Shown here: positions 4,863-62,167 of the stretch, piece after piece
Layout of the letters: every line of letters begins with the position of its first letter
Numbering within the stretch: the stretch's first letter is position 1
NCBI GenBank assembly: GCA_947650285.1
Contig: CANTFL010000478.1
Coordinates: 185,135-249,134 of the forward strand
Reading direction: 5' to 3'
DNA length: 64,000 nucleotides
Source: Hyaloperonospora brassicae
Lineage: Eukaryota; Oomycota; Peronosporomycetes; Peronosporales; Peronosporaceae
Made by a program: the position numbers and the translations under genes
The notes under the pieces: generated by a model
What the model saw: the letters and a program-made list of their open reading frames with translations, nothing else
The model's database searches: none
Told to the model about the DNA's origin: nothing

Positions 4863-5526
4863 TGATCTCCAGACCGTCAACGTAACTGTTTCCTTTCCAC
4901 TAACCCCATATCCATGACTCGTACCCTTCTCCCGACGTACTTTTACCCACTATCGCCGGTCCTATCCTGTCAGATCTTATATTACGGTTCTGTCTAACCG
5001 TCCAGTAGACGTGATCCCATCATTTGTGGGACCCGCGTTGCCAACCGTCTGCCAACTCGTATTTAGCTGGAGTGCGCCCCCTTCTCGTGTCGCAAATTTC
5101 ACTATTCGCTTCACCACAATACCGTTGCTCCCGGATTTCACTAGAAAACTTTCCAAGGTATAAATGAGCGACCTGTAGACCGCTCAGCTGGTTTAATTAA
5201 TTTTGTGCGGGACCCGTGAGAACATATCCAAACAAAAGGCACTTCTCTTTATCTAGAGCATGGTTTTGTAGGAATGGGGACTTGTGGAGAAGCGGGAAGG
5301 AATAATCAAGAAAGTGTGGATCGCCCGACCACCTAAAGTGCGAAACCGGTTTGATTGGTGGAGCGCGTACAGATATGGGCCTGTTGGGACGAGGAAGATG
5401 ACCAAACGACTGATGAAGGGATACGACTGTCCAAGTCGCTCAGGTTGGTCCACCTTATATCCTGGATACCGCTGGGTGATGTGGATCACATAATTGGTGT
5501 GGATCATATACCGCATCCACCACACC

Positions 5527-5585
5527 GCGATCCACTGTGGAGCGATCCACTGTGGAGCGATCCGCTGTGGAGTATCCGCTGTGGA
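5527..5585. repeat. 15-bp tandem repeat, four units
   Basis: Units GCGATCCACTGTGGA (5527-5541, 5542-5556), GCGATCCGCTGTGGA (5557-5571) and a 14-bp variant (5572-5585) follow each other without gaps. Each unit holds the near-palindrome TCCACTGTGGA, so the array is also rich in short hairpins. It lies in non-genic retroelement debris. Confidence 0.85.
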
Positions 5586-5859
5586 CCACATGAGGTGAGA
5601 GATGAATGACATAGACAGGCGATGCACAACAGTTGACCTATCGAAAAGATAGGCATAGTCATCGGGTTTGGATTTGGTTGGTTGACGTTAAACAGAATTG
5701 AATTTGCAACGGAAGACACGCGTAGACTTTTTCCGGGTAGGATCTTTGGCATCCCTTTGAATAGAGAGTCACATACGTCTCTGCGAACTTCGTCCTAAAA
5801 TTGTTTGGCCTGGCGGAACGTCGATTCTCACTCCTCTCCCTCAACTGCGATAGGACGCA

Positions 5860-6190
5860 GTGAAGCTTACGGTTCAGATTTAAGATCGCGAGACGGCTCA
5901 AGTGGTCATAAGGCTCGCGTATCAAGCATCACCCCTGGCAAAGGCGACTCTGGGAGACCGCCCAAGTTACAAGCGATCGATTTAATATATTCCACGCGAT
6001 CAGCACCTACGTTTGACCGGGTGAGGCATTTCCACCCGATCAATACCTATCCATAAGACGGTCAAATTCAGCTTCAGCTCAAGTCCGCCAAGAAGAGCGC
6101 AACCCGCCCCACCGACGGGTACACAAGGTGAGCAAGAAGACACAGAGCACGTAATCGGGGTACCACCTCCTTTAGTCGGTTGTCCGGGCG
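5860..6190. repeat. Inverted fragment C of the element A/B gag block
   Basis: Its reverse complement matches both 3950-4290 and, in two pieces, 7725-7745 plus 9525-9800. Shared landmarks are GCGCCCGGACRACCG, the ACCCGTCGGTRGGGCGGGTT segment, and AAGATCGCGAGA.GG..CAAG. Translated in the matching sense it gives the same SRDGSSG(H/Q)KAR string as the minus strand near 9790. C lacks the DNA element that interrupts B, so it preserves the empty target site. Confidence 0.7.
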
Positions 6191-7745
6191 CCAGTGGAGA
6201 GTCGGCGTCACAAGGAAATTGTGATCATCACTCTACCACAGACTTGATCTTAATAATCCAACTTCTGGACCACTTTTCATCCCTGTCTTTTCTGTTAAAT
6301 TTTTTACAGATACGCGATTGAGGACACCCAAATCCTCGATGCGCTAAGTACGATAGCCGGTGCTATTTCCGCAGTCGCTACCAGTGTCCGTCTGAGATCG
6401 TTTTGCCCAAATTCGTCGGAATCTCCTCCTTCTGGGTAATAGGTATCCGATATGTCTTGACGCGATCCGACCTATTCCATCACGACATCCAGGATTTAGG
6501 TCTCCTGCTCCCTCGCATGTCTCTAGGTCTGACGTGGATAGAAGGCTTGTCGAGCTTGTTATCGTTGCTCTTGTTAAAATCATAATATGAAGCTTCGAAA
6601 TACGTCTGTTTGGGCATACATCCTCTATGGCGCACGAAGATGCCGAGCACGAATCGTCCTTAATCCTCACCATGCAATCTTGCAGATGAGATGCCCCACT
6701 TTTACCTAGCGCCATCTGCTGAATACCGATCAATCCATCTGATTTGATCTCTGATTCAGCTGATGCGTACTGCGATGATCCAGTGTGATATCCTCGGGGC
6801 ATCCGCAATCGCCAGAAACGCTTATTATTCGAGCTTGTATTCGTCCTTCATCAAACTGCCTGGGCCATCCGCGATATCCGGGAGCATTTGATCTTCGTTC
6901 TTGTATTCTCCCGTCAACGGAATCAGCCCTTTATACAGCGATCGACTCGCCCTATTCACTTGATCTTATTTACAATTCAGTAATTTCTTCGCGTCGAATA
7001 CCCCTCGACGAATCCTGCATTTCATATCAGCTGGATGAATTCGTTGACCCCTTTTATCGTGTTTGATTCTGGCACTGGAGCTGAGATTGGGCCTTGACAC
7101 TTCCCTATAAGCTTGAGCTTCAATTTTTGTAGCACCGGGTCGCTTGATAGCAACGTCTTGAGATTCTTCCAATGATATTTCATTTACAAGTTTTATTTGC
7201 CAACCTTCCGTCGTATCTTCTTCTTTTATAACCCATACCGGTCAATACTCAAATGGAGCGATCGCTTTGTTCAATCTCTGACGCTGCTTTCTTAGTATTT
7301 GTCACTTAAAACCCTTTCTTCTTCGAAATCACAAGAGTGTTGTTGGATCAATCTTGTTCGGTTTTGACCGATAGATTTCTACTTTGCTAATCATACTTTG
7401 TAGCACGATCCGCGGTGGTCCTCGAAGATACCTCAGGAGGAAGTCGAGGTAAATTTCCCAGATTGAGTGATGGATCTTTCTCTGTAATTTTCTTGTCACC
7501 AGAGCCACTCCCAGTACTCTCTCATACTCGTAATCTTTCAAATTCACGCGTCTACGGCAACTCCTCTGTCTCTGACGCTTCCATCCCAGGTTCAGTCTTT
7601 ATCTTGTCATCTTCGCCAAGGACTCACGGTAAAATCCCGAGTCACCGGAAGATCTGGGCACACGCACCATTGTAGTGAAGTAATGACCGCTCTTTCAAGG
7701 ATTCGATCTCAACTCCGACTAGCGCCCGGACGACCGTCCAACGGG

Positions 7746-8005
7746 AAAATCTTATAAGAATAGGTGTTCGCCTGAAACAATGTGTTATATTACGCTATCC
7801 ATCAGTCTTATTTGATATACACCAAAAAGGGTATAGAAAATGCCTCTTTTTATTGAATTTCAATATATATATTTATGCAATAATTAGGACACTCCGCTTT
7901 TTTAAAAAAAGGTTTGTAATTCCAATTTGTTGATAGCCTTCTCAGGGCAATGCCCTTGCACACGTTCAGCAATCGCTACACTTGCATGCCTTAACGTCGA
8001 ATGTT
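7746..8005 (+). repeat. Left terminal inverted repeat of the nested element
   Basis: About 260 bp, complementary to 9265-9524 with roughly three quarters identity by eye. Contains two inner imperfect direct AT-rich tracts. Exact inner end uncertain. Confidence 0.65.
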
Positions 8006-9022
8006 TCACGGACCATTCACCGATATTGCTCCTGTTTCTTTTCTTTTCTCGGTCGTCCCTTCCGCCGTCTTCAGAGATCTTCCACCAATTATTAGACGTC
8101 GGTCTAAATCATTCCACGGACATCGCAGCGGGAACCATATGCGATAGAGGAAGACGTGACTACCGAACTGGGGTACGCTAGAGGTAATTTGAGGCTGTCC
8201 TATACCACGTTGAATGTGCCGATTGTTGCGGGCTTGTGTTTGTGTATTTTGGGATTCAACCCCTTGCTGGACCCACGCCAGCGACTGTACTCAAGTTGAG
8301 TATACAATAAATGTATAAGGGGGACTGGCTAAGCAGTGGGTGGAGCCATAGACAAAGCGATACGAGAAAGAGAGGGACAGAGTGTCCTTTATAGTCATGG
8401 CTGATGACTGAGTAGTTAACAGACTAAACACCGTCTGTTGTGGTTATTGCCATTGATGGTATACTCCTATTTATTGTTGTTTCTGATGTTGTGCAGGCAT
8501 TCGATGGTGTCGCGTTCTGGAGTTTGGAGACTTTTTGGCTGGTGCCAAGTTTTTACTACCAGTAGTTTCCAAGTACGTGGATGTGCGTAAGAAAAAATGA
8601 GGTACGAGAATTGAATGCTGGTAAATAATTATGTGGCGATGGTCTCAGCGTGCCTGGAGCGATCATGTTCACCATAATTGGATTAATGTCTATAAAGGCG
8701 AATATGAAGCCGTCGCTTGGCTCGGATGTCGAAGCTTCTAATGTAAAATCAGAGCAAGTACTACCCGGGGATATATATAAAATGCCTCGATGCAACTTAC
8801 GGTGTCCGCGATCAACCCGTAGTGGCTTGCGTCTTATATTGACGCAATGCATCAGATACTTGAGATGCTGCGTGGAATACATACGATCTATACTTGAGCT
8901 AAATGATCTGTGTTGTTAAGGAGACTGCAGTGTACGGCACCGGTATACTCGAGTTTACGCTGGCTCTAGCCTTCCTATTTCCCATCGGCGTATATTGTGG
9001 TGTTCTGTCATGGTTTTACTCG

Positions 9023-9280
9023 CTACTTCCCCGCTTTAGAACGTACTAGCAAATTGGTAAGCTGTGCTGCTGCTGATGAGTTTTGAGCAACACGGCTAAT
9101 CAGCATCGCGTGTGTATTTTGGATTTTTACACCATTTAGGATCACACCATCAAATAATATGGCGTGGGTTGGTGTGCTTTCTGCAAGCACTAGATATATT
9201 TCGCGCAAAGTTATCGTTGGATTACTTTTTTGTTGAATCCAATAGATGATACCAAGGAGACATGACATTACGGCATGCAC
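9023..9280 (-). other. Unassigned open frame inside the nested element
   Basis: An 85-codon frame without internal stops runs from the right TIR into the element interior. It could be a relic of a transposase, but no DDE, zinc-finger or other motif is visible. A plus-strand frame at 8650-8919 (89 codons) and a minus-strand frame at 8556-8882 overlap each other and are equally unassigned. Probably non-functional. Confidence 0.25.
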
Positions 9281-9524
9281 ATGTAGGGATTGCTGAGCGT
9301 ATGCAAGGGTAGTACCCTGAGCAGGCCATCAACTAATTGGGACTGCAGTCCTTTTTCAAATTAGCGGGGTGTCCTGATTATCGTAGAAACATTTATTTTA
9401 ACGTTCAAATGTAAGTGGTATTTTCTTTACCCTTTTTACTATGTAATAAATAAGTCAAAAGGACAGCCCAACCGTAACACAATATATATTAAGGCGAACA
9501 CCAATGTGTTATTGAGATTTCTTG
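9265..9524 (-). repeat. Right terminal inverted repeat of the nested element
   Basis: Inverted partner of 7746-8005. The outermost conserved string AAGGCGAACACC is at 9491-9502 and its complement is at 7762-7772. Confidence 0.65.
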
Positions 9525-10168
9525 ACTAACTGACGGGGTACTCCGATTCCGTGCTGTATGCTTTGCTAACCTTGTTTACCCGTCGGTAGGGCGGGTTGCA
9601 CGCTTCCAGGTGGACTCGAGTCGACGCCAGGATTGACCGTGCTTGGGATTGGTGTTGTCGCGTGGAAACATTTACACGATAGCGGGTGTACTTGTAAGGT
9701 GCTTGATATAATACACCTTGATGTCTACGAAATTGCCTCGTCCAAAGTAGATGCTTGATCCGCGAGCCTTCTGACCACTTGATCCATCTCGCGATCTTGC
9801 ACTCTTCTTCTTTACTTGCCTTCTGCGTCCGATCGCAGGTGGGCGTTTTGTTGAGAGTCTTTGATCCCTAGCCAAACAATCTAGGTATATCACTTGATTT
9901 ATGTATGTGACTTTCTTTGACAATAAGTGGCCAATGATCGAACCCGGAAGAGAAATTGACACGTCTACTTAAGAGCAAATCGAACTATATTTTATAATGT
10001 CAACCAATCAACTCCGAAAAACTAGTACATCGCTAGTCCTATCTGTATCAGGACTTTCGAAGCCACGCGTATTCCTCCGAGAGATCGTCCCCTTTTATCT
10101 ATGTGGTTTACACCAAGTTCGGTCTCTGGAACTTTAGTGCTACCTACACCCGACTTGTGTTCAACAAA

Positions 10169-10206
10169 TCGAGATCGAGATATCTGATCGAGATCGAGAT
10201 ATCTGA
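10169..10206. repeat. Perfect 19-bp direct tandem duplication
   Basis: TCGAGATCGAGATATCTGA occurs at 10169-10187 and again at 10188-10206. It sits between element B and the truncated start of the chromodomain gypsy element. Confidence 0.85.
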
Positions 10207-10353
10207 TCATGATTATGAGCCACCCGTTTTAGCACGTATTCTTCCAATCAGAATTCGTCTTGGTCTTAAATGACGACTGAGATCTGTAACTTCCGTGTCC
10301 CAACTCAATGGCAAAAATATATTGAATTCTTTGCCAAATCAGATTCTTAACTT

Positions 10354-11186
10354 ATGCGCAAGTATAAGTTGTACGCCAACCTCAAAAAGTGTATATTTGC
10401 TGATAACGAAATACCACTTCTTGGGTACACCGTGGGTCAAGACGTCGTACGCCCTGATCCCGAAAATATCGAAGCGATAGCGGACTGGCCAGTGCCAGTC
10501 GATTTCAAGGGACTTCGTAAGTTCCTTGAGCTATCGACAAACTTGCACAAGTACTCGCGCAACTATGCCGAGATGACTGTGCATCTTTCTTGTTTACCCA
10601 ATACAAATGTGAAGTATACATGGAACGATTATTGTCAGCGTTTCTTTGAAGGGAAAAAGCAAAGCTTGATACAATCGCCCATCTTGGCGATTGAAGATCA
10701 GGACAGACAATTTCACGTGGTCTGTGACGCCAGCGATTTCGCGATCGGCTGCGCGTTGATGCAATATGACACAGATGGTGCAGAGCGCGTCATCTGTTAT
10801 CAGTCGCGTCAGCTGCAACTAGCTGGGCGTATTTATCAGTCCATGACAAGGAACGCCTTGCCATGAAGTACACGCTGACCAATTTTCGCGTCTATCTCTT
10901 AGGAGATAGACCGTTCATCGTCCTAACGGACCATGGATCGCTACTCACGGCGGTACACAGTCCACAACTCTCGCAACGAATGGCGAGGTGGCCGTCTTTC
11001 TTTGAGAAATCTAAATTCTCCGTCAGGTCTAATTTAGGACGACTTAAACTCATCGCTGATGAGCTATCGCGCCGATGCGGTTTCGAGCCGGGCGCGTTAT
11101 CAAATTGTAGAAGAAATCCCACTTTTGTGATACTTACGGTCAGTGTCCCGTCGTCAACATTGCTTGACGACGTGAAAAAGGCCTAA
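10354..11186 (+). pseudogene. Gypsy RT thumb/connection and RNase H, frameshifted
   Basis: The first frame (10354-10866) has the RT tail (KCIFADNEIPLLGY, LRKFLELSTNLHKYSRNYAE) and the RNase H start (VVCDASDFAIGCAL, whose first Asp is catalytic). Frame is lost near 10836, where one base appears deleted from a TATTCAGTCCATGAC-like string. The rest of RNase H continues in the next frame (10863-11186) with MKYTLTNFRVYLLGDRPFIV and LTDHGSL. The copy at 63469 shows the uninterrupted arrangement. Confidence 0.85.
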
Positions 11187-11279
11187 GAAGAATATAAGGA
11201 TCCTTTGCGCTTGATGAGTCATCTTGCAAACCCATCCCGGAAATCCTTGTCGGATTTGCCGGCTCGATAACGATCCTCT

Positions 11280-12767
11280 TTGGATCGGTACACGACTCGC
11301 AATGGCCTGCTGTATTGCACAGCAGTTGCTGATGCCACACCTCGTATCGTCGTCCCCAATCACAATATTTTGCGCTTTCGCATAATTTATGAGTGTCACA
11401 ATGTTCCAACAAGCGCGAATCGTGGTAGGGAAAATACTTACCTTACAGTAAGTCGTAACTTTTACTGGCCCTGCCAGTATCAGTATGTCCGCAATTACAT
11501 TCGTTCTTGCGAGGTTCGCAAGTACATACGTTTTGCGAGGTGCGCCAACGGGTTAAGCCTAGTCCTGCATCCCGTGCACCATTAAAAGCTCTGCCGGTGC
11601 CGGCAGAATGTTGGGAGTCCGTTTCCATGGACTTTGTCTTCGGTTTTCCCGAAGACACTCACAAGAATAATGGTATTATTGTGTTTGTCGATCGTTTCAG
11701 CAAGATGGTGAATCTTGCTGCGACCCCGAGCCGATAACGGCTCAAGGTTGTGCGCGTGCCTTCATCGACACGATATTTCGACTCCACGGATTACCCCGTG
11801 AGCTCGTATCCGACCGTGGTCCTCGGTTCACGGCGGATTTTTGGCAATCTGTGTTCCGCACTTTGGGAGCACGATCAAAGATGTCAACATCTTACCATCC
11901 CGAAACATATGGTCAGACGGAACGTGCCATACGTGTCCTCGAAGAAATACTTTGACAATATGTCCACTCGTTAACGAGTTGTAGTGAGTTCTTGTCGATG
12001 GTGGAATACGACATCAACAACTCCGTGCATGCGTCCATGACGCATACTCCGTTCTACGTGAATGGCTTACGCCACCCACGTATTCCCGCACCTATACAGA
12101 GTGACTCTGGGTTAAGGGGGGGGTTCGCTCGAGCAAAAACCGTTTTGGCTCTTGCTCATAACGTATCATCGCACATGCCGATACGTTCGATGTCGATGTC
12201 GATAATGTAGACATCGAAGAAGTTGATCTTAGCAGTAGCGATGACGCTGCTGCTACTTCAGACAATGATGAAGATGCTGGGATATTCAGCATCTTCAACG
12301 ATTATTTCAGCGAGGAAGAGGACAAGCTCGCTGAAGAAGAGAAGAATCTATTAGCAGTGCGCACAAGGCGAACTGAACAAAACAACGCCGAGCCAGCAGA
12401 ACGATTTCTGCTAGCTCGTGAAGCAGTGGTCCGTTTCGTGCAGGATTCCATCGCTCACGAGGTGGACCGCCAGAAACGAAACGCAGACAAGAATGGAAGA
12501 GCAAATGTTCTTTCATTTAAAGTTAACGACCTAGTACTACTGTCTACGGTAAACTTACCTGGACATGCAGTCACTAGTGTCGGCAGTAGTAAACTACTGT
12601 CGAAATACATTGATCCCTTTCATGTATTGCCCAGAAAAGGCAATGCATACACCATTGAGTTGCCTCGCAGGATGAGAACGCATACTACGTTTTATGTTGG
12701 TAGTCTCCACCCGTACTATCAGCACGAGGTCTCTTCCAAGAGCGGAAATGTCCAGCACGTTCAATAA
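11280..12767 (+). pseudogene. Gypsy integrase: zinc-binding domain, DDE core and C-terminal domain, broken
   Basis: 11280-11585 encodes an HHCC-type region in which several ligands are altered (the usual CxxC end reads CEVRKY). The core starts at MDFVFGFPED (about 11627) with the first catalytic Asp. Frame shifts at about 11735, after which LHGLPRELVSDRGPRFTADF carries the second Asp. YHPETYGQTERA follows near 11895. Further frame changes occur at about 11955 and 12120. The C-terminal part (12480-12767: KVNDLVLLSTVNLPGH, FYVGSLHPYYQHE) is open and typical of gypsy integrases. Confidence 0.85.
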
Positions 12768-13200
12768 TCCCCAACAGATTCTTGTGATCACGGACCAAAC
12801 ACTCAATTTTTTCCTTCAGCAACGCAGTCTCGCGACGAGCCGCCTCTAGCCCGTCGTGCAAATGTCGCCTCTCGCGTTCGTTCTCAAGCTGCGTGAACGC
12901 GAATTCAGATCGGTCTTTCTCCCGATCGAAGCGGAAACGTCGTACGGTCGACAACAAGTCGTGTCGACGATCGTGTTCGGGGTCGAAGTCCTCCCTCAAC
13001 TCGGCCAGGTAATGTTCACGGTTACCCAAAGTATCATGCAGGCCCGGCAGCTGAGCCAGACCTTGTCTTTCCACCACCACCGGAGCCACAAGTGGATTCT
13101 CACGGTGGTAGAAGCTTTCACGTGGGGAGTATCTTGAGCCACCGCGTGAAGAACGGGGAGCGGACAAGTTACCTTGTCCGCTGGTGTAAATATCCACCAT
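12685..13200 (-). CDS. Antisense open frame over the integrase-chromodomain linker, coiled coil predicted
   Basis: 171 codons on the minus strand; the frame is rich in Arg, Glu and Leu. A heptad-like stretch (about residues 95-155: LENERERRHLHDGLEAARRE then TALLKEKIECLVRDHK) would form a coiled coil. It lies antisense to the chromodomain region, and the plus strand here encodes the known pol C-terminus. It may simply be a by-product of the plus-strand codon bias, or the distal part of the antisense gene at 13395-14277. No family recognised. Confidence 0.35.
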   Translation of the reverse strand: MVDIYTSGQGNLSAPRSSRGGSRYSPRESFYHRENPLVAPVVVERQGLAQLPGLHDTLGNREHYLAELREDFDPEHDRRHDLLSTVRRFRFDREKDRSEFAFTQLENERERRHLHDGLEAARRETALLKEKIECLVRDHKNLLGIIERAGHFRSWKRPRADSTGGDYQHKT

Positions 13201-13304
13201 CTTATGACAGCTGGGAACCTCGATCCCAGCTTATGACTGATGTTGAGAGTCTCGTCCACCAGTACGACAAGAATCATCCGGTTGGTCCTCGGGCTCATCG
13301 GTAA
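13092..13304 (+). pseudogene. C-terminal chromodomain of the gypsy integrase
   Basis: The frame reads FHVGSILSHRVKNGERTSYL then VRWCKYPPSYDSWEPRSQL and ends shortly after YDKNHP. This is the chromodomain fold with the aromatic and WEP signature that targets chromoviruses to chromatin marks. It is separated from the integrase C-terminus by about 320 bp in which the plus frame is interrupted. The opposite strand is open across it. Confidence 0.85.
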
Positions 13305-13394
13305 ACACGCGCTTTTGGAGCTTGTAGACGGATTGCCAGTTTGCAATCGCGTCCCGCATCTCAGCAGAGATGTCTGCCCTTTTCCAGGGCGAAC

Positions 13395-14277
13395 TTAGGG
13401 AATAAACATCCCTATGTGCACGTTGCGAGTTGTCAACACAACTCGCACAAAGACCACCCCAAGTGAGGCAAGGAATGACTGCCTCACTCGACAAACGATG
13501 CAGCCGGTACCTTGTACCGGTTGGTGTTCGTTTCTCAAACTTGATGCGTACTGCGTCAAGTTTTTGGAGCCATCCTTCTCGTCCAAAATTCTTGACATTT
13601 TGGACGAACGCGTTTCATGCAGCCAAAAGCAAAGCTTTGTCACGCTTTTGATTAACAGTGTACCATCGATGCTTGAGGAAAGCATCGAGATAGAAGTCTT
13701 CTCCAGCGCAAAAGTTCTTCTCGCTGGAGCTCAAGCCATGGATCTCGCTCGCATCAAATAATGAAATTCGATGATGTTGACTTGTCTCATGAGACAAGCT
13801 ATTGATGAGCTGTTCAGGCAAACGCCACGTCTTCAGCTCGTCACGCTTCGGCGTGGTATCTTTGCCGGTACCGCGGGTTCTAATATGACGACGGCTCGCG
13901 CCATCGTCAACGCGCTCGTGCGATGGCGCACGAGTTGATCGCGGTGATGAGTAATCATACTCATCACCATATTCATCATCACTGCCGAACAGACTGTCAC
14001 GCATGTCGCGAGTCCGTTCTTTCGGCAGGTCTTTTGGCGAGCGAGGCACCGCGGGTGCGCGCGATGCCTCTAGCGGCTTTATCGAGTCAGACACATCTGA
14101 CTTGCCTGAGTAGCTGACCCCTAGCTCGAGGTCACTGTGTGCATGTGGTGCGATACCACATGCGCCTGCAGCAACACTTGCTGCAGGCAGAGAACGAGCA
14201 GCAGACGACGAATCGTCTGCCGCAGAGGCTGGCACGGTAGCAGACTGTGTCGTCTTTGAATCACCCCGCATAGACAT
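13395..14277 (-). pseudogene. Antisense gene-like ORF between chromodomain and 3' LTR (unknown function)
   Basis: From ATG at 14277 (MSMRGDSKTTQS) an open frame runs to 13615, continues after one frameshift near 13630-13680 and ends at 13395, about 290 residues in all. The first third is Ala/Ser-rich. An acidic patch (SLFGSDDEYGDEYDY) and a basic patch follow, and then a folded-looking part (TWRLPEQLINSLSHETSQHH, LFDASEIHGLSSSEKNFCAG, FYLDAFLKHRWYTVNQKRDK, and after the shift NLTQYASSLRNEHQP and QSFLASLGVVFVRVVL). The plus strand has no long frame here. The sequence looks like a real protein that was coding until recently. No domain recognised. Confidence 0.5.
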
Positions 14278-14404
14278 GTTAATTATGCGAGAAAAGTCAG
14301 AATGAATGGATCTGACCAACAAGTGCTCCCCGTCCCTTTGACATCCAACGGGTGGCCACAGAAGTTTCGATAGTCACACGGTGACTATCAGCTAAGGGGG
14401 GTGA

Positions 14405-14847
14405 TGTAACGATACAGCCCGTTACATGATATTGTCATTAAGTCTAAAATGACAATAAAGAATATTACGTTGAATATTCTTTCAACAATATCACAGAGCA
14501 TGATGATATTGTTGGAGATGACCGAAGGGTCTACTCATTAGTTGATATCGTGATGATATCAACCCACCAATCGGTGCTAGACGCGCGCAATGGGTGGTGA
14601 GTAGACGTCATCATACGTTTAGTTAGATTAATATAAATAAGTCAGGATAAACAGAGACATAATATTGATAGGACTTGATTGTATTAAATAACAGTTTTAC
14701 TTTTACCAGAGACTAGAGTGTTCACTTAGTCTCCTTTCCTTCCTCTGTGTTGGTGCAACACTTAGCAGGGCAATGACTATCATTGTTGTCAGTGGAAGTG
14801 AGCTCCGTATTGGTCAACCAGTACGTTGTCACCAGTGCCCTGTTACA
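14405..14847 (+). repeat. 3' LTR of the chromodomain gypsy element
   Basis: Begins TGTAACGATACAGCCCGTTA directly after the polypurine tract and ends GCCCTGTTACA: 443 bp with TG...CA ends. It contains the motif GCGCGCAATGGGTGGTGAGT followed by AGACGTCA (14583-14610), shared with the three other LTR relics in the window. A TATAAATAAG-like promoter string lies at about 14632. Confidence 0.85.
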
Positions 14848-14859
14848 TTCACTGACTGC

Positions 14860-15278
14860 AGTTAGAAATAGTTACCTGTTATAAAGCTTACACAGTACGC
14901 TTTAGAGAAAGGCTAAGCACTAAATGACTAGGCTTAGTCAAAGAAAAGGAAAACCGTATTGATAGAATCAAGTCCAGAAAATGTGTCGCATCTTTTAGTC
15001 CTGTCTCTACTATATTATAATCAAAGTGTGTATGGTGACGTCTACTCACCACCATTGCGCGCGTCTATCAGTGATTGTGGGGTTGATATAATGGCCATTT
15101 CGACCAATGAGTAGACCATTTGGTCACTGCAACAATCTCACTGAACTTAGTGATATTGTAGTGAGAATATCAGACTTGAACTTGGTGGTATTGTAGTGAG
15201 AATACAAGACTCGATATTCTTTATTATTATTTTATTGTTGTAAATGATGTTATTACGTAACAGGCTCACTTCGTTACA
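14860..15278 (-). repeat. Inverted LTR relic, tail-to-tail with the LTR at 14405-14847
   Basis: The minus strand starts TGTAACGAAGTGAGCCTGTT at 15278 and holds the shared LTR core (complement of GGTGACGTCTACTCACCACC then ATTGCGCGCG, 15034-15062) and further matches near 14960-15010. The left end is diverged, so 14860 is an estimate. No internal retroelement sequence is attached on its far side, so it is a solo or truncated LTR. Confidence 0.7.
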
Positions 15279-49914: not shown

Positions 49915-50361
49915 TTATGCCACATAATGAGGTAAGCCTGATATTTGATTTTAGTGCTACATGTTCTGATGATGAGAAACATTGACCTATATGTTGCTAT
50001 TACATTAGTGCAACACAACGTGGTATTACTTCAGTAAATCAAGGATTATCTCATTAGTTGATTATATGAAATCATATCAACACACCATATCATGCTTGGA
50101 GCGCGCAATGGGCGATGAGTAGACGTCAACATACCTTTTTGTATATTAAATATAAAAAAGACTAATTGACCACGAAGTGATTTCAGGACGGAATCCTATT
50201 CAGTTCTGTTTTGCTTATACCACTATTACGCTACACTCTCTTGTTAGTTGAGACTTTCTGTGTATAGTATACGTGAGGTGGTAGGTCTGATAAAGAAATG
50301 CTTCCAGGAAGAGTATGTTTCGTACTGTTCACTAGTACGTGACTGCCAGTGCTCTGTTACA
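49915..50361 (+). repeat. Diverged solo LTR (gypsy), plus orientation
   Basis: Contains ATCTCATTAGTTGAT, then AGCGCGCAATGGGCGATGAG and TAGACGTCAACATA (50101-50134), matching the LTR at 14405-14847. It ends GCTCTGTTACA at 50361. The 5' end is placed by comparison with the 443-bp copy. No internal retroelement sequence adjoins it on either side. Confidence 0.65.
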
Positions 50362-60990: not shown

Positions 60991-61165
60991 TTGCGCAAAC
61001 AGCGCTAGACAACTATGAGTCGAAATCCCGGTCCCAACTAGAAATTTGGTATGACACGGAGAAGCGTCGACATCGAGTAGGCACGGGGCGCCCTAATATG
61101 TTAGAACTAGATTTTTCTACTTCTCTACGTGAAAGAGGATACAGGGCTTATCCCCACAGAGCTCT

Positions 61166-62167
61166 GTGCCCATCAGCACAGAGCGTGGATACAATCCTTG
61201 CTTTTTAGTCGCTGAGGCGACAGTGAGAGGCTTTGAAAAGCATTGGCCGATCCTAATCGATATAGGGGCATCATGTAGGTATGCTCGACGTCGTAACCTT
61301 AAGGGAAGTCAGCGACACGCCAAAGCGCTCAAAGCGCATGAGGTGGAACGATCACCGTTACGTTTAGAGACTGGTAGTCGCGTCTCAGTGCCTAAAGTTC
61401 CGTTAAACTTAGGTGTAAGGTTTTTGGACTTTGACAGCACTAAACGCTGTATTGTACTCGATTTGGATTCGAGAATCGATCTCATCTTAGATATGGCTTG
61501 GCTTGAACGCCATGAGCCATGTATAGATTGGAGGTCGAAGACCTTAGGCGCAACGCGCAATGTTTCTAGAGAAGCTTTGGAGGGTCATAAACCCATCTTT
61601 GCTAGGCAACAGACGCACTATTGGCGCGAGCCATTGATGGAATATGTCAACGTGCTGGACATTGGTATGTCCGAGTTTGTTAACTCTATTTACAATGACA
61701 TAAAAATTAAACCGAGCTCTTATACCGTATGTGAAGAGTGTCGTACTACGTTGAGTGATAATCGTTGTGATACTGAGTCACTGCATGATGCAGACATGGT
61801 TGGCCTAGAACCAAGACATCAAGAATGTAATTTCTCTGGTGTGACTGGGGTTGCACGTAAGAATCCACCGAGTGAAGGAGGCCGTGATGGTACCACACTG
61901 AACTTCGTTATTGCCATTGTTGGTGAACAGCCGGAGCATTCAGAGCAAGGACCACATGATGTACGTGAAGTGGTACGTGTCAATTCACTGGGTGAAGAGT
62001 TCGAGTTATGTAACTCTTCACTAGATGTTGATAAAGGCATGAGCTCTTGTATAGAGCGTACTACGATAACTAGCAACCACGGGGACACTGCTGTCCCGGC
62101 CTCGAGGAGGCGTAAGGTTTCTTTTAGGATACAATTTCAGCGTAGATTGGCAACTGTTAAGCGCTAA
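61166..62167 (+). pseudogene. Gypsy aspartic protease and pol linker
   Basis: A 333-codon frame, open because it is part of the polyprotein (its first codon is not ATG). VRGFEKHWPILIDIGASCRY carries the protease active site, with Ile in place of the usual Thr/Ser after the catalytic Asp (61259-61261). The flap-like part and RIDLILDMAWLERHEPCIDW with GMxWL-type geometry follow. The rest (from about residue 140) is the poorly conserved linker before RT. The substitution should impair proteolysis. Confidence 0.75.

Follow-up and report, generated by a model that had tools for sequence, protein, structure and literature searches.

Short perfect hairpins crowd a Ty3/gypsy retrotransposon family of Hyaloperonospora brassicae, and their stems change slowly

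Base pairing that can be predicted from sequence along a whole genome is known from viruses, where genome-scale ordered RNA structure has been linked, in the parts of the source drawn on here, to reduced recognition by host defences (PMC3950689). Folded regions, including the part that encodes reverse transcriptase (RT), have likewise been described in the genomic RNA of the yeast long terminal repeat (LTR) retrotransposons Ty3 and Ty1 (PMC11381356), and RNA hairpins with perfect stems, short loops and compensated changes have been argued to be created and maintained by template switching (Monttinen and Loytynoja, PMC8794818). We describe here a Ty3/gypsy element found in a 64,000-nt stretch of the Hyaloperonospora brassicae genome (GenBank assembly GCA_947650285.1, contig CANTFL010000478.1, positions 185,135 to 249,134 of the forward strand; hereafter the window), which belongs to a family crowded with short perfect inverted repeats whose stems change more slowly than comparable sequence. 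Unlike viral ordered structure as presented in PMC3950689, the pairs are perfect and local, have a small preferred size and show no preference for G.U, and their carrier is an LTR retrotransposon. The yeast RNA differs in folding conventionally, about 19% of the sequence forming the core, and the portions of PMC11381356 consulted describe no set of about 110 perfect local hairpins; in comparison with the template-switch-made hairpins of PMC8794818, as far as the consulted part of that paper goes, the stems reported here are slow against matched sites and crowded into one element family. Among the literature matches listed, no hairpin-saturated retrotransposon was described in titles or abstract openings.

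A first-pass annotation of the window had listed the repeats and judged them far too numerous for chance. All 17 of its paired arms proved perfect, 16 in the hairpin element and one in a second gypsy element at the right-hand end, and its two palindromes, at 13781-13798 (18 bp) and 61155-61168 (14 bp), are exact; one of the 17, the hairpin at 14483-14514, has arms of 11 bp and not 10 bp as had been noted. Within 11590-14563 there are 20 perfect repeats with arms of at least 9 and loops of up to 20, against a mean of 0.18 (maximum 2) in 100 dinucleotide shuffles, so that the excess claimed there is confirmed, and lowering the arm to at least 8 gives 30 against 0.77 (maximum 3). Tiling with arms of at least 6 and loops of 3-20 placed the excess from near 10,000 to near 14,640, covering 14-34% of bases per 500-base step of 10,000-15,000 vs about 4-6% in shuffles. 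The repeats had been assigned to pol, to antisense frames and to the LTR, and these labels are correct. Codon-preserving shuffles were made with the pol open reading frame (ORF) of a full-length copy, L012, and not with the broken frames of the window copy; there the hairpins again far exceeded expectation (20 observed, mean 0.43, maximum 2 in 200 shuffles). Nearby host DNA, which by eye had seemed free of the pattern, is indeed not enriched, with 2 hairpins observed and 1.9 expected (arm at least 9, loop up to 12) in window 16,000-46,000, this control being the whole 30 kb stretch and not annotated exons; as far as this stretch goes, a host-wide property was thus rejected. We found no support for an origin in chance, base composition or codon usage; it is refuted by the dinucleotide and codon-preserving shuffles and by other element families (see below), and we give it virtually no credence.

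The family was sought in the 100.56 Mb genome (898 contigs) with a 601-base piece of the window element, which gave 1337 first-look candidates; 40 of them were scored and listed, and 20 of those 40 copies were fetched at length, one ending at a contig end. L012, a full element of 7737 bp, has two 442-bp LTRs that are 99.1% identical, a 922-codon pol ORF and a gag split over two overlapping frames. Its pol has the gypsy order of Pfam domains (RVT_1 124-289, RNase H 353-483, H2C2 601-658, rve 678-770), and by this order and the paired LTRs the hairpin carrier is a Ty3/gypsy LTR retrotransposon (Metaviridae). Counting both LTRs and loops of up to 20, L012 holds 97 perfect repeats with arms of at least 8 and 60 with arms of at least 9; a non-overlapping set (arm at least 7, loop up to 12) numbers 114, spans 2662 of the 7737 bp including loops, has a median centre spacing of 49.5 bases and is found in the LTRs as well as in the gag region, in pol and in the 3' part that bears antisense ORFs. 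No repeat with an arm of at least 9 was present in the 3.2 kb of 500-base bins lying wholly outside the element.

With the host-control thresholds (arm at least 9, loop up to 12), the 20 family copies contain 493 hairpins in 132,965 bp with flanks, vs 6.2 expected. Thirty other integrase loci (99,141 bp) contain 2 vs 3.4 expected; 27 of them form one group, none has tblastx similarity to the hairpin element at E <= 1e-6, and they were taken for Ty1/copia. Three related gypsy loci (10,103 bp) contain 1 vs 0.2 expected. A property common to all retrotransposons of the genome was rejected on these 30 integrase loci and three gypsy loci. One related gypsy locus, L061, on contig C871 and with a 1606-codon ORF, has a single arm of at least 9 in 4.5 kb, and its family, free of hairpin saturation at the sole locus read (L061), offers a natural control; 1606-codon ORFs of this related family lie on contigs C871, C56, C10 and C778. 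The right-hand gypsy element of the window had been described as a milder version of the same pattern: its hairpins are exact, but the element belongs to another, related family, its translated RT/RNase H pieces being 50-62% identical. The hairpin of this element at 61992-62021 resembles one at L061:907-938, with arms GTGAAGAGTT and GGTGAAGTGTT and a loop of 10 in each case, and the two may be one conserved hairpin in a family that otherwise lacks such structures. Decayed relatives of the hairpin family are still enriched at arms of at least 7: a distant member, 74.6% identical (L065), has 11 vs 2.15, and another, 82% identical over the first 936 of its 2501 bases (L066), has 7 vs 1.32. A locus on contig C55 found through a related LTR (L064), slightly enriched at 9 vs 2.4 (arm at least 7), was set aside as having no blastn or tblastx similarity to the L012 element (E <= 1e-5).

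The hairpins have a preferred size. The excess over shuffles in L012 lies at arms of 7-11, with little at 4-5, and at loops of 1-12; at arms of at least 8 the counts fall to 2 at loop 12, 1 at 13, 1 at 14-15 and 0 at 16-20; loops of 21-30 keep a slight excess (6 vs 0.75). Total span in the 114-hairpin set has a median of 23.5, 77 of the 114 measuring 20-26 and only 2 exceeding 30, and pairing just outside the arms is near random at 17-33%. By eye, the listed window and L012 arms differ in sequence from one hairpin to another, LTR pairs excepted, and therefore do not represent one mobile hairpin in many copies; no common loop motif was seen by eye. An L012 LTR stem at X 2258-2293 has 14-bp arms; in most sister LTRs, three of its four outermost pairs do not form, so that this stem is of unequal length in the two LTR lineages.

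The copies allow rates of change in stems to be compared with those elsewhere. Most of the 128 hairpin centres found over 21 copies are common to several copies, 26 being confined to one. Columns in which a single copy differs make up 34.0% in stems and 33.9% outside; such differences probably reflect mostly decay after insertion, and their equality therefore indicates that host replication neither protects nor repairs stems. Differences common within a sublineage, in turn, are expected to date largely from the time when the element still moved. Two sublineages, of 9 near and 12 far copies, were therefore compared. A stem had to be perfect in two or more copies of one side and was measured on the other; the matched non-stem windows had to be both intact and identical in two or more of those copies, and were available for 62 of 92 and 43 of 84 hairpins. 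With 75% agreement required, 4/1525 and 7/1391 stem sites differed (counts that shift by a few sites with the handling of ties between arm definitions), against 480/27349 and 194/8630 in matched windows, which overlap, so that their counts serve as rates. Stem/window ratios were 0.36 and 0.39 at 60% agreement, 0.15 and 0.22 at 75%, and 0.05 and 0.14 at 85%, and in a bootstrap over hairpins every interval lay below 1 (the widest 0.18-0.76). Depending on the cut-off, stems thus changed 2.6 to 19 times more slowly than matched windows between sublineages.

A plainer count at 75% gave 4/1517 and 7/1457 differing sites in stems, 72/3482 and 75/3515 outside, and 9/361 and 6/328 in loops. Because a stem definition made on one side hides that side's breaks, the fair comparison is the sum of both branches, which is 0.74% in stems vs 2.1% at 75% and 2.9% vs 4.1% at 60%. 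When L012 was set against columns at least 85% uniform in the far copies, it differed at 6/1344 sites in stems, 13/328 in loops and 116/3179 elsewhere; at third codon positions of pol the figures were 1/158 in stems and 20/343 outside. All these rates carry the same caution about one-sided stem definition. Slow stems with free loops are likely to reflect selection on pairing, and we infer that selection, not lower mutability, is the cause. The competing view is a mutational ratchet in which hairpin bases mutate less during the retroelement cycle, so that hairpins accumulate neutrally. It would explain slow stems between sublineages alongside equal copy-private change; the compensated changes in LTRs and the compatible amino-acid changes described below fit selection better, the preferred stem size is not predicted by it, and we know of no paired-base mutation shield of this kind. 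We consider it very improbable.

Compensated changes were sought in the LTRs by comparing the family LTR with 21 sister-lineage LTRs (20 of the 44 matches listed and a window fragment), 73-82% alike to that fragment. Just downstream of the hairpin element the window carries an inverted LTR fragment (14935-15170), about 76% like the element's LTR, which is one of many diverged sister LTRs (2275 first-look genome candidates); another short LTR relative lies at 50050-50160, 78.6% identical to window 14534-14641. At the majority level, 46 of 53 stem pairs are unchanged between the LTR lineages, 4 are changed on both sides and 3 on one, the outer four pairs of the 14-bp stem and two stems (one overlapping, one without sister letters) having been left out. 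All four doubly changed pairs are Watson-Crick, two of them through transversions. Random non-stem LTR pairs show one-sided change in 40% and both-sided change in 13%; the shortage of one-sided change in stems is only partly evidence, because stems taken from L012 hide breaks on the family side. Within the family, compensated changes make up 41 of 819 single-copy changes (14-26 in slid controls) and 30 of 349 changes common to 2-3 copies (7-16 in slid controls). Such slow stems with rare compensated change fit what is expected of selected stems. The first-pass annotation had offered selected RNA structure as one origin of the hairpins, and the selection part of that proposal is supported by the slow stems against matched windows and the compensated LTR pairs; the RNA part is less certain, since G.T is not favoured over A.C inside the element.

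Its other proposal was that template switching perfects quasi-palindromes. In the fuller form of this explanation, snap-back switching by the reverse transcriptase of the element or by a host polymerase creates and re-perfects such sequences without selection, which would suit the perfect Watson-Crick arms with short loops and no G.U preference, the confinement, among the families sampled, to one that has a reverse transcriptase of its own, and the compensated changes, among them double transversions and, in two copies, the joint change of two neighbouring pairs. Copying one arm onto the other fixes as many mutations as it erases, so that compensated change would be expected at the neutral rate, yet compensated changes stay below the ordinary substitution rate and the stem/control ratios of 0.05-0.39 are not those of neutral sequence. 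The 45 listed compensated pair changes are moreover isolated pairs save for two adjacent couples (hairpin 16 in L016 and hairpin 50 in L027), and one-sided changes have no arm bias (504/505, 202/213 and 72/63). Because stems change less than matched windows, snap-back was set aside as the maintaining force, and as a whole this explanation appears unlikely to us; template switching may have made the stems originally, before the examined copies diverged. The list of 45, and the counts of one-mismatch L012 stems and of one-sided cells given below, share one limit, namely that stem sets defined on L012 hide L012's own breaks.

Which strand folds was addressed through the mismatches. Among L012 stems with a single mismatch and a length of at least 10, 7 have G.T, 12 A.C and 15 another mismatch; one-sided cells over all copies number 479 G.T and 521 A.C, pair states in at least four copies 28 G.T and 47 A.C, and one-sided changes at the majority level lean to A.C. 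An A.C mismatch on one strand is a G.U pair on the opposite strand. Non-stem changes lean alike, however (51 G>A or T>C vs 34 C>T or A>G), and a minus-strand preference can therefore not be claimed. A sense-strand pairing preference is set aside for the internal part of the element. Predicted RNA folding was sampled in four 250-nt element chunks and two host chunks with 40 shuffles each: the element chunks folded more stably than shuffles on each strand (z -2.3 to -8.8), and the host chunks lay at about 0. With no sense-strand preference for G.U in the pairing, we infer that both strands must fold. An ordinary structure of the sense-strand RNA, that is, a genome-scale ordered fold like those of RNA viruses and Ty1/Ty3 RNAs, with a role in stability, packaging or the control of translation, accords with these folding scores, with conserved stems and free loops, and with the compensated LTR changes and two G.T intermediates. 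The A.C mismatches, internally as common as G.T or commoner, and the lack of any loop motif common by eye speak against it, and because G.U is not preferred inside the element, ordinary sense-RNA folding fits poorly; we regard it as improbable.

Proteins of relatives suggest that the hairpins are old. The nearest protein to the L012 pol is that of a Ty3/gypsy element of Peronospora effusa (P0001), 88% identical, followed by contig proteins at 72-81% and one P. matthiolae protein at 80%; six peptide patterns found no relatives in viral and bacterial/archaeal collections. We asked whether 24 L012 pol hairpins would still be encodable as perfect hairpins by the proteins of 120 relatives. The answer changed in a step: among the 12 relatives of at least 71.5% identity, the P. 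effusa protein could encode 19 of 24 and the others 8-14 of 19-24, and relatives below 70% identity, among the matches listed, could encode 3-6 of 22-24. Where arm amino acids had changed in the clade, the hairpin was still encodable in 60 of 193 cases vs 32.7 +- 3.3 (maximum 42) in 200 redraws of the changed residues from 108 outsider proteins, a control weakened by the close kinship of the clade proteins, whose changes could be of a more conservative kind. Stem codons in the 12-relative clade are also more conserved than the variability of the 108 outsiders predicts (circular-shift fraction 0.001). Comparison at the protein level thus suggests that the hairpins are older than the divergence from the P. 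effusa element. The idea that hairpin gain forced amino-acid changes was tried and found no support (difference -0.0035, circular-shift fraction 0.41).

Our current explanation, to which we attach roughly even chances, is that selection on the transposing lineage keeps some 110 hairpin arms paired, each strand folding into stem-loops that hide the element from small RNAs. In the oomycete Phytophthora infestans, gypsy LTR elements are matched by small RNAs of both orientations, and the small RNAs from LTR elements include classes of 21 and 25/26 nt, of which the 21-nt class is Dicer-dependent (PMC3522703). Under the explanation we favour, about 110 short inverted repeats, with arms mostly of 7-11 and spans of about 20-28 nt, would be kept from gag through pol to both LTRs by purifying selection, and each strand would fold into a chain of small stem-loops. 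Such a chain, each hairpin about one small RNA long and perfect on both strands, would reduce sense-antisense duplexes, and targets and guides alike would fold on themselves. Stems of this size are too short for Dicer. The gain for the element would be escape from sense-antisense duplexing and from small-RNA targeting, and a shield of this kind would account for the Watson-Crick symmetry, for the upper size limit and for the presence of hairpins in coding and LTR sequence alike. A bolder form would see the hairpins as a second code laid over genes, in which stem-loops of about small-RNA length, Watson-Crick on both strands, make sense RNA, antisense RNA and small RNAs fold on themselves, so that the element would be self-armoured against silencing across the downy mildews; this wider claim is tentative and rather doubtful.

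Several results weigh against the explanation we favour. Only about a third of the element lies in hairpins, and any shield would therefore be partial. The slowdown varies with the cut-off, being least marked at 60% agreement, where the plainer count gave 24/1662 and 23/1583 in stems vs 158/3888 and 161/3921 outside, and lower mutability of paired sequence in the retroelement cycle would also slow stems. Most stem differences within the family are one-sided, the compensated excess among single-copy changes and those common to 2-3 copies is modest, and among changes common to at least four copies there is none (5 of 102, slid controls 0-8). Covariation among sister LTRs is weak, with 23 doubly changed Watson-Crick cells vs 15.5 +- 3.3 (maximum 26) in shuffles and 17-31 when slid; at 60% agreement the LTR count becomes 3 double and 3 single of 52 pairs. 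The one-sided LTR states, finally, are two G.T and one A.C, and the G.T states suit plain RNA folding.

The window copy itself is a 5'-truncated, hairpin-saturated Ty3/gypsy element running from pol to the 3' LTR at 10339-14847 on the + strand (blastn to L012 element X 5424-9918, 86% identity over 4532 columns). Its 3' LTR (14405-14847, +, 86.5% to the L012 LTR) was found alone, with no paired LTR, and has five hairpins in a row within its first 160 bases. The post-integrase part of pol at 12357-12767 (+) includes a Tf2-1-like SH3 domain (Pfam PF24626, E 9e-11 on 12357-12764). On the + strand, the inverted-repeat scan found arms of 9 at 10890-10911 (loop 4), 11149-11172 (loop 6), 11635-11657 and 11698-11720 (loop 5 each), 12186-12218 (loop 15), 12306-12335 (loop 12), 13462-13488 (loop 9), 13666-13688 (loop 5), 13898-13929 (loop 14), 14141-14163 (loop 5) and 14369-14389 (loop 3); arms of 10 at 13159-13182, in the stretch after integrase, and 13424-13447 (loop 4 each); and arms of 11 at 13579-13607 (loop 7), 13943-13968 (loop 4) and 14164-14188 (loop 3). 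The + strand also has the hairpin at 12269-12297 (arm 11, loop 7), in which one compensated pair differs from L012, and the 18-bp palindrome mentioned above. At the LTR start, tiling placed a hairpin of arm 8 and loop 8 at 14404-14427 (+), and the LTR hairpins that follow in the scan are at 14430-14457 (arm 10, loop 8), 14457-14482 (arm 10, loop 6), 14483-14514 (loop 10) and 14541-14563 (arm 9, loop 5), all +.

Antisense ORFs occupy the 3' third of the element, at window 13615-14322 (-) and 12685-13200 (-) and at L012-element X 8186-8851 (-) and 8951-9454 (-). The first of these, of 235 codons, overlaps many hairpins and has no Pfam match. Non-stem differences between sublineages in X 8275-8850 fall by phase as 1/115, 5/112 and 10/105, with the peak at the third position of the antisense frame, a skew that suggests a real antisense protein; X 8951-9454 has no such skew (6/115, 8/116 and 9/105).

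Inserted retrotransposon copies form a fossil series, in which neutral decay follows insertion and selection bears on the active lineage alone. Such a series makes selection and mutation easier to tell apart, and in this family it points towards maintained pairing at about a hundred sites of coding and non-coding sequence. If the shield reading is true, the hairpins would be a sequence-level, protein-free counter to RNA silencing; even without a shield function, this family would be a natural test bed for the origin and persistence of perfect stems.

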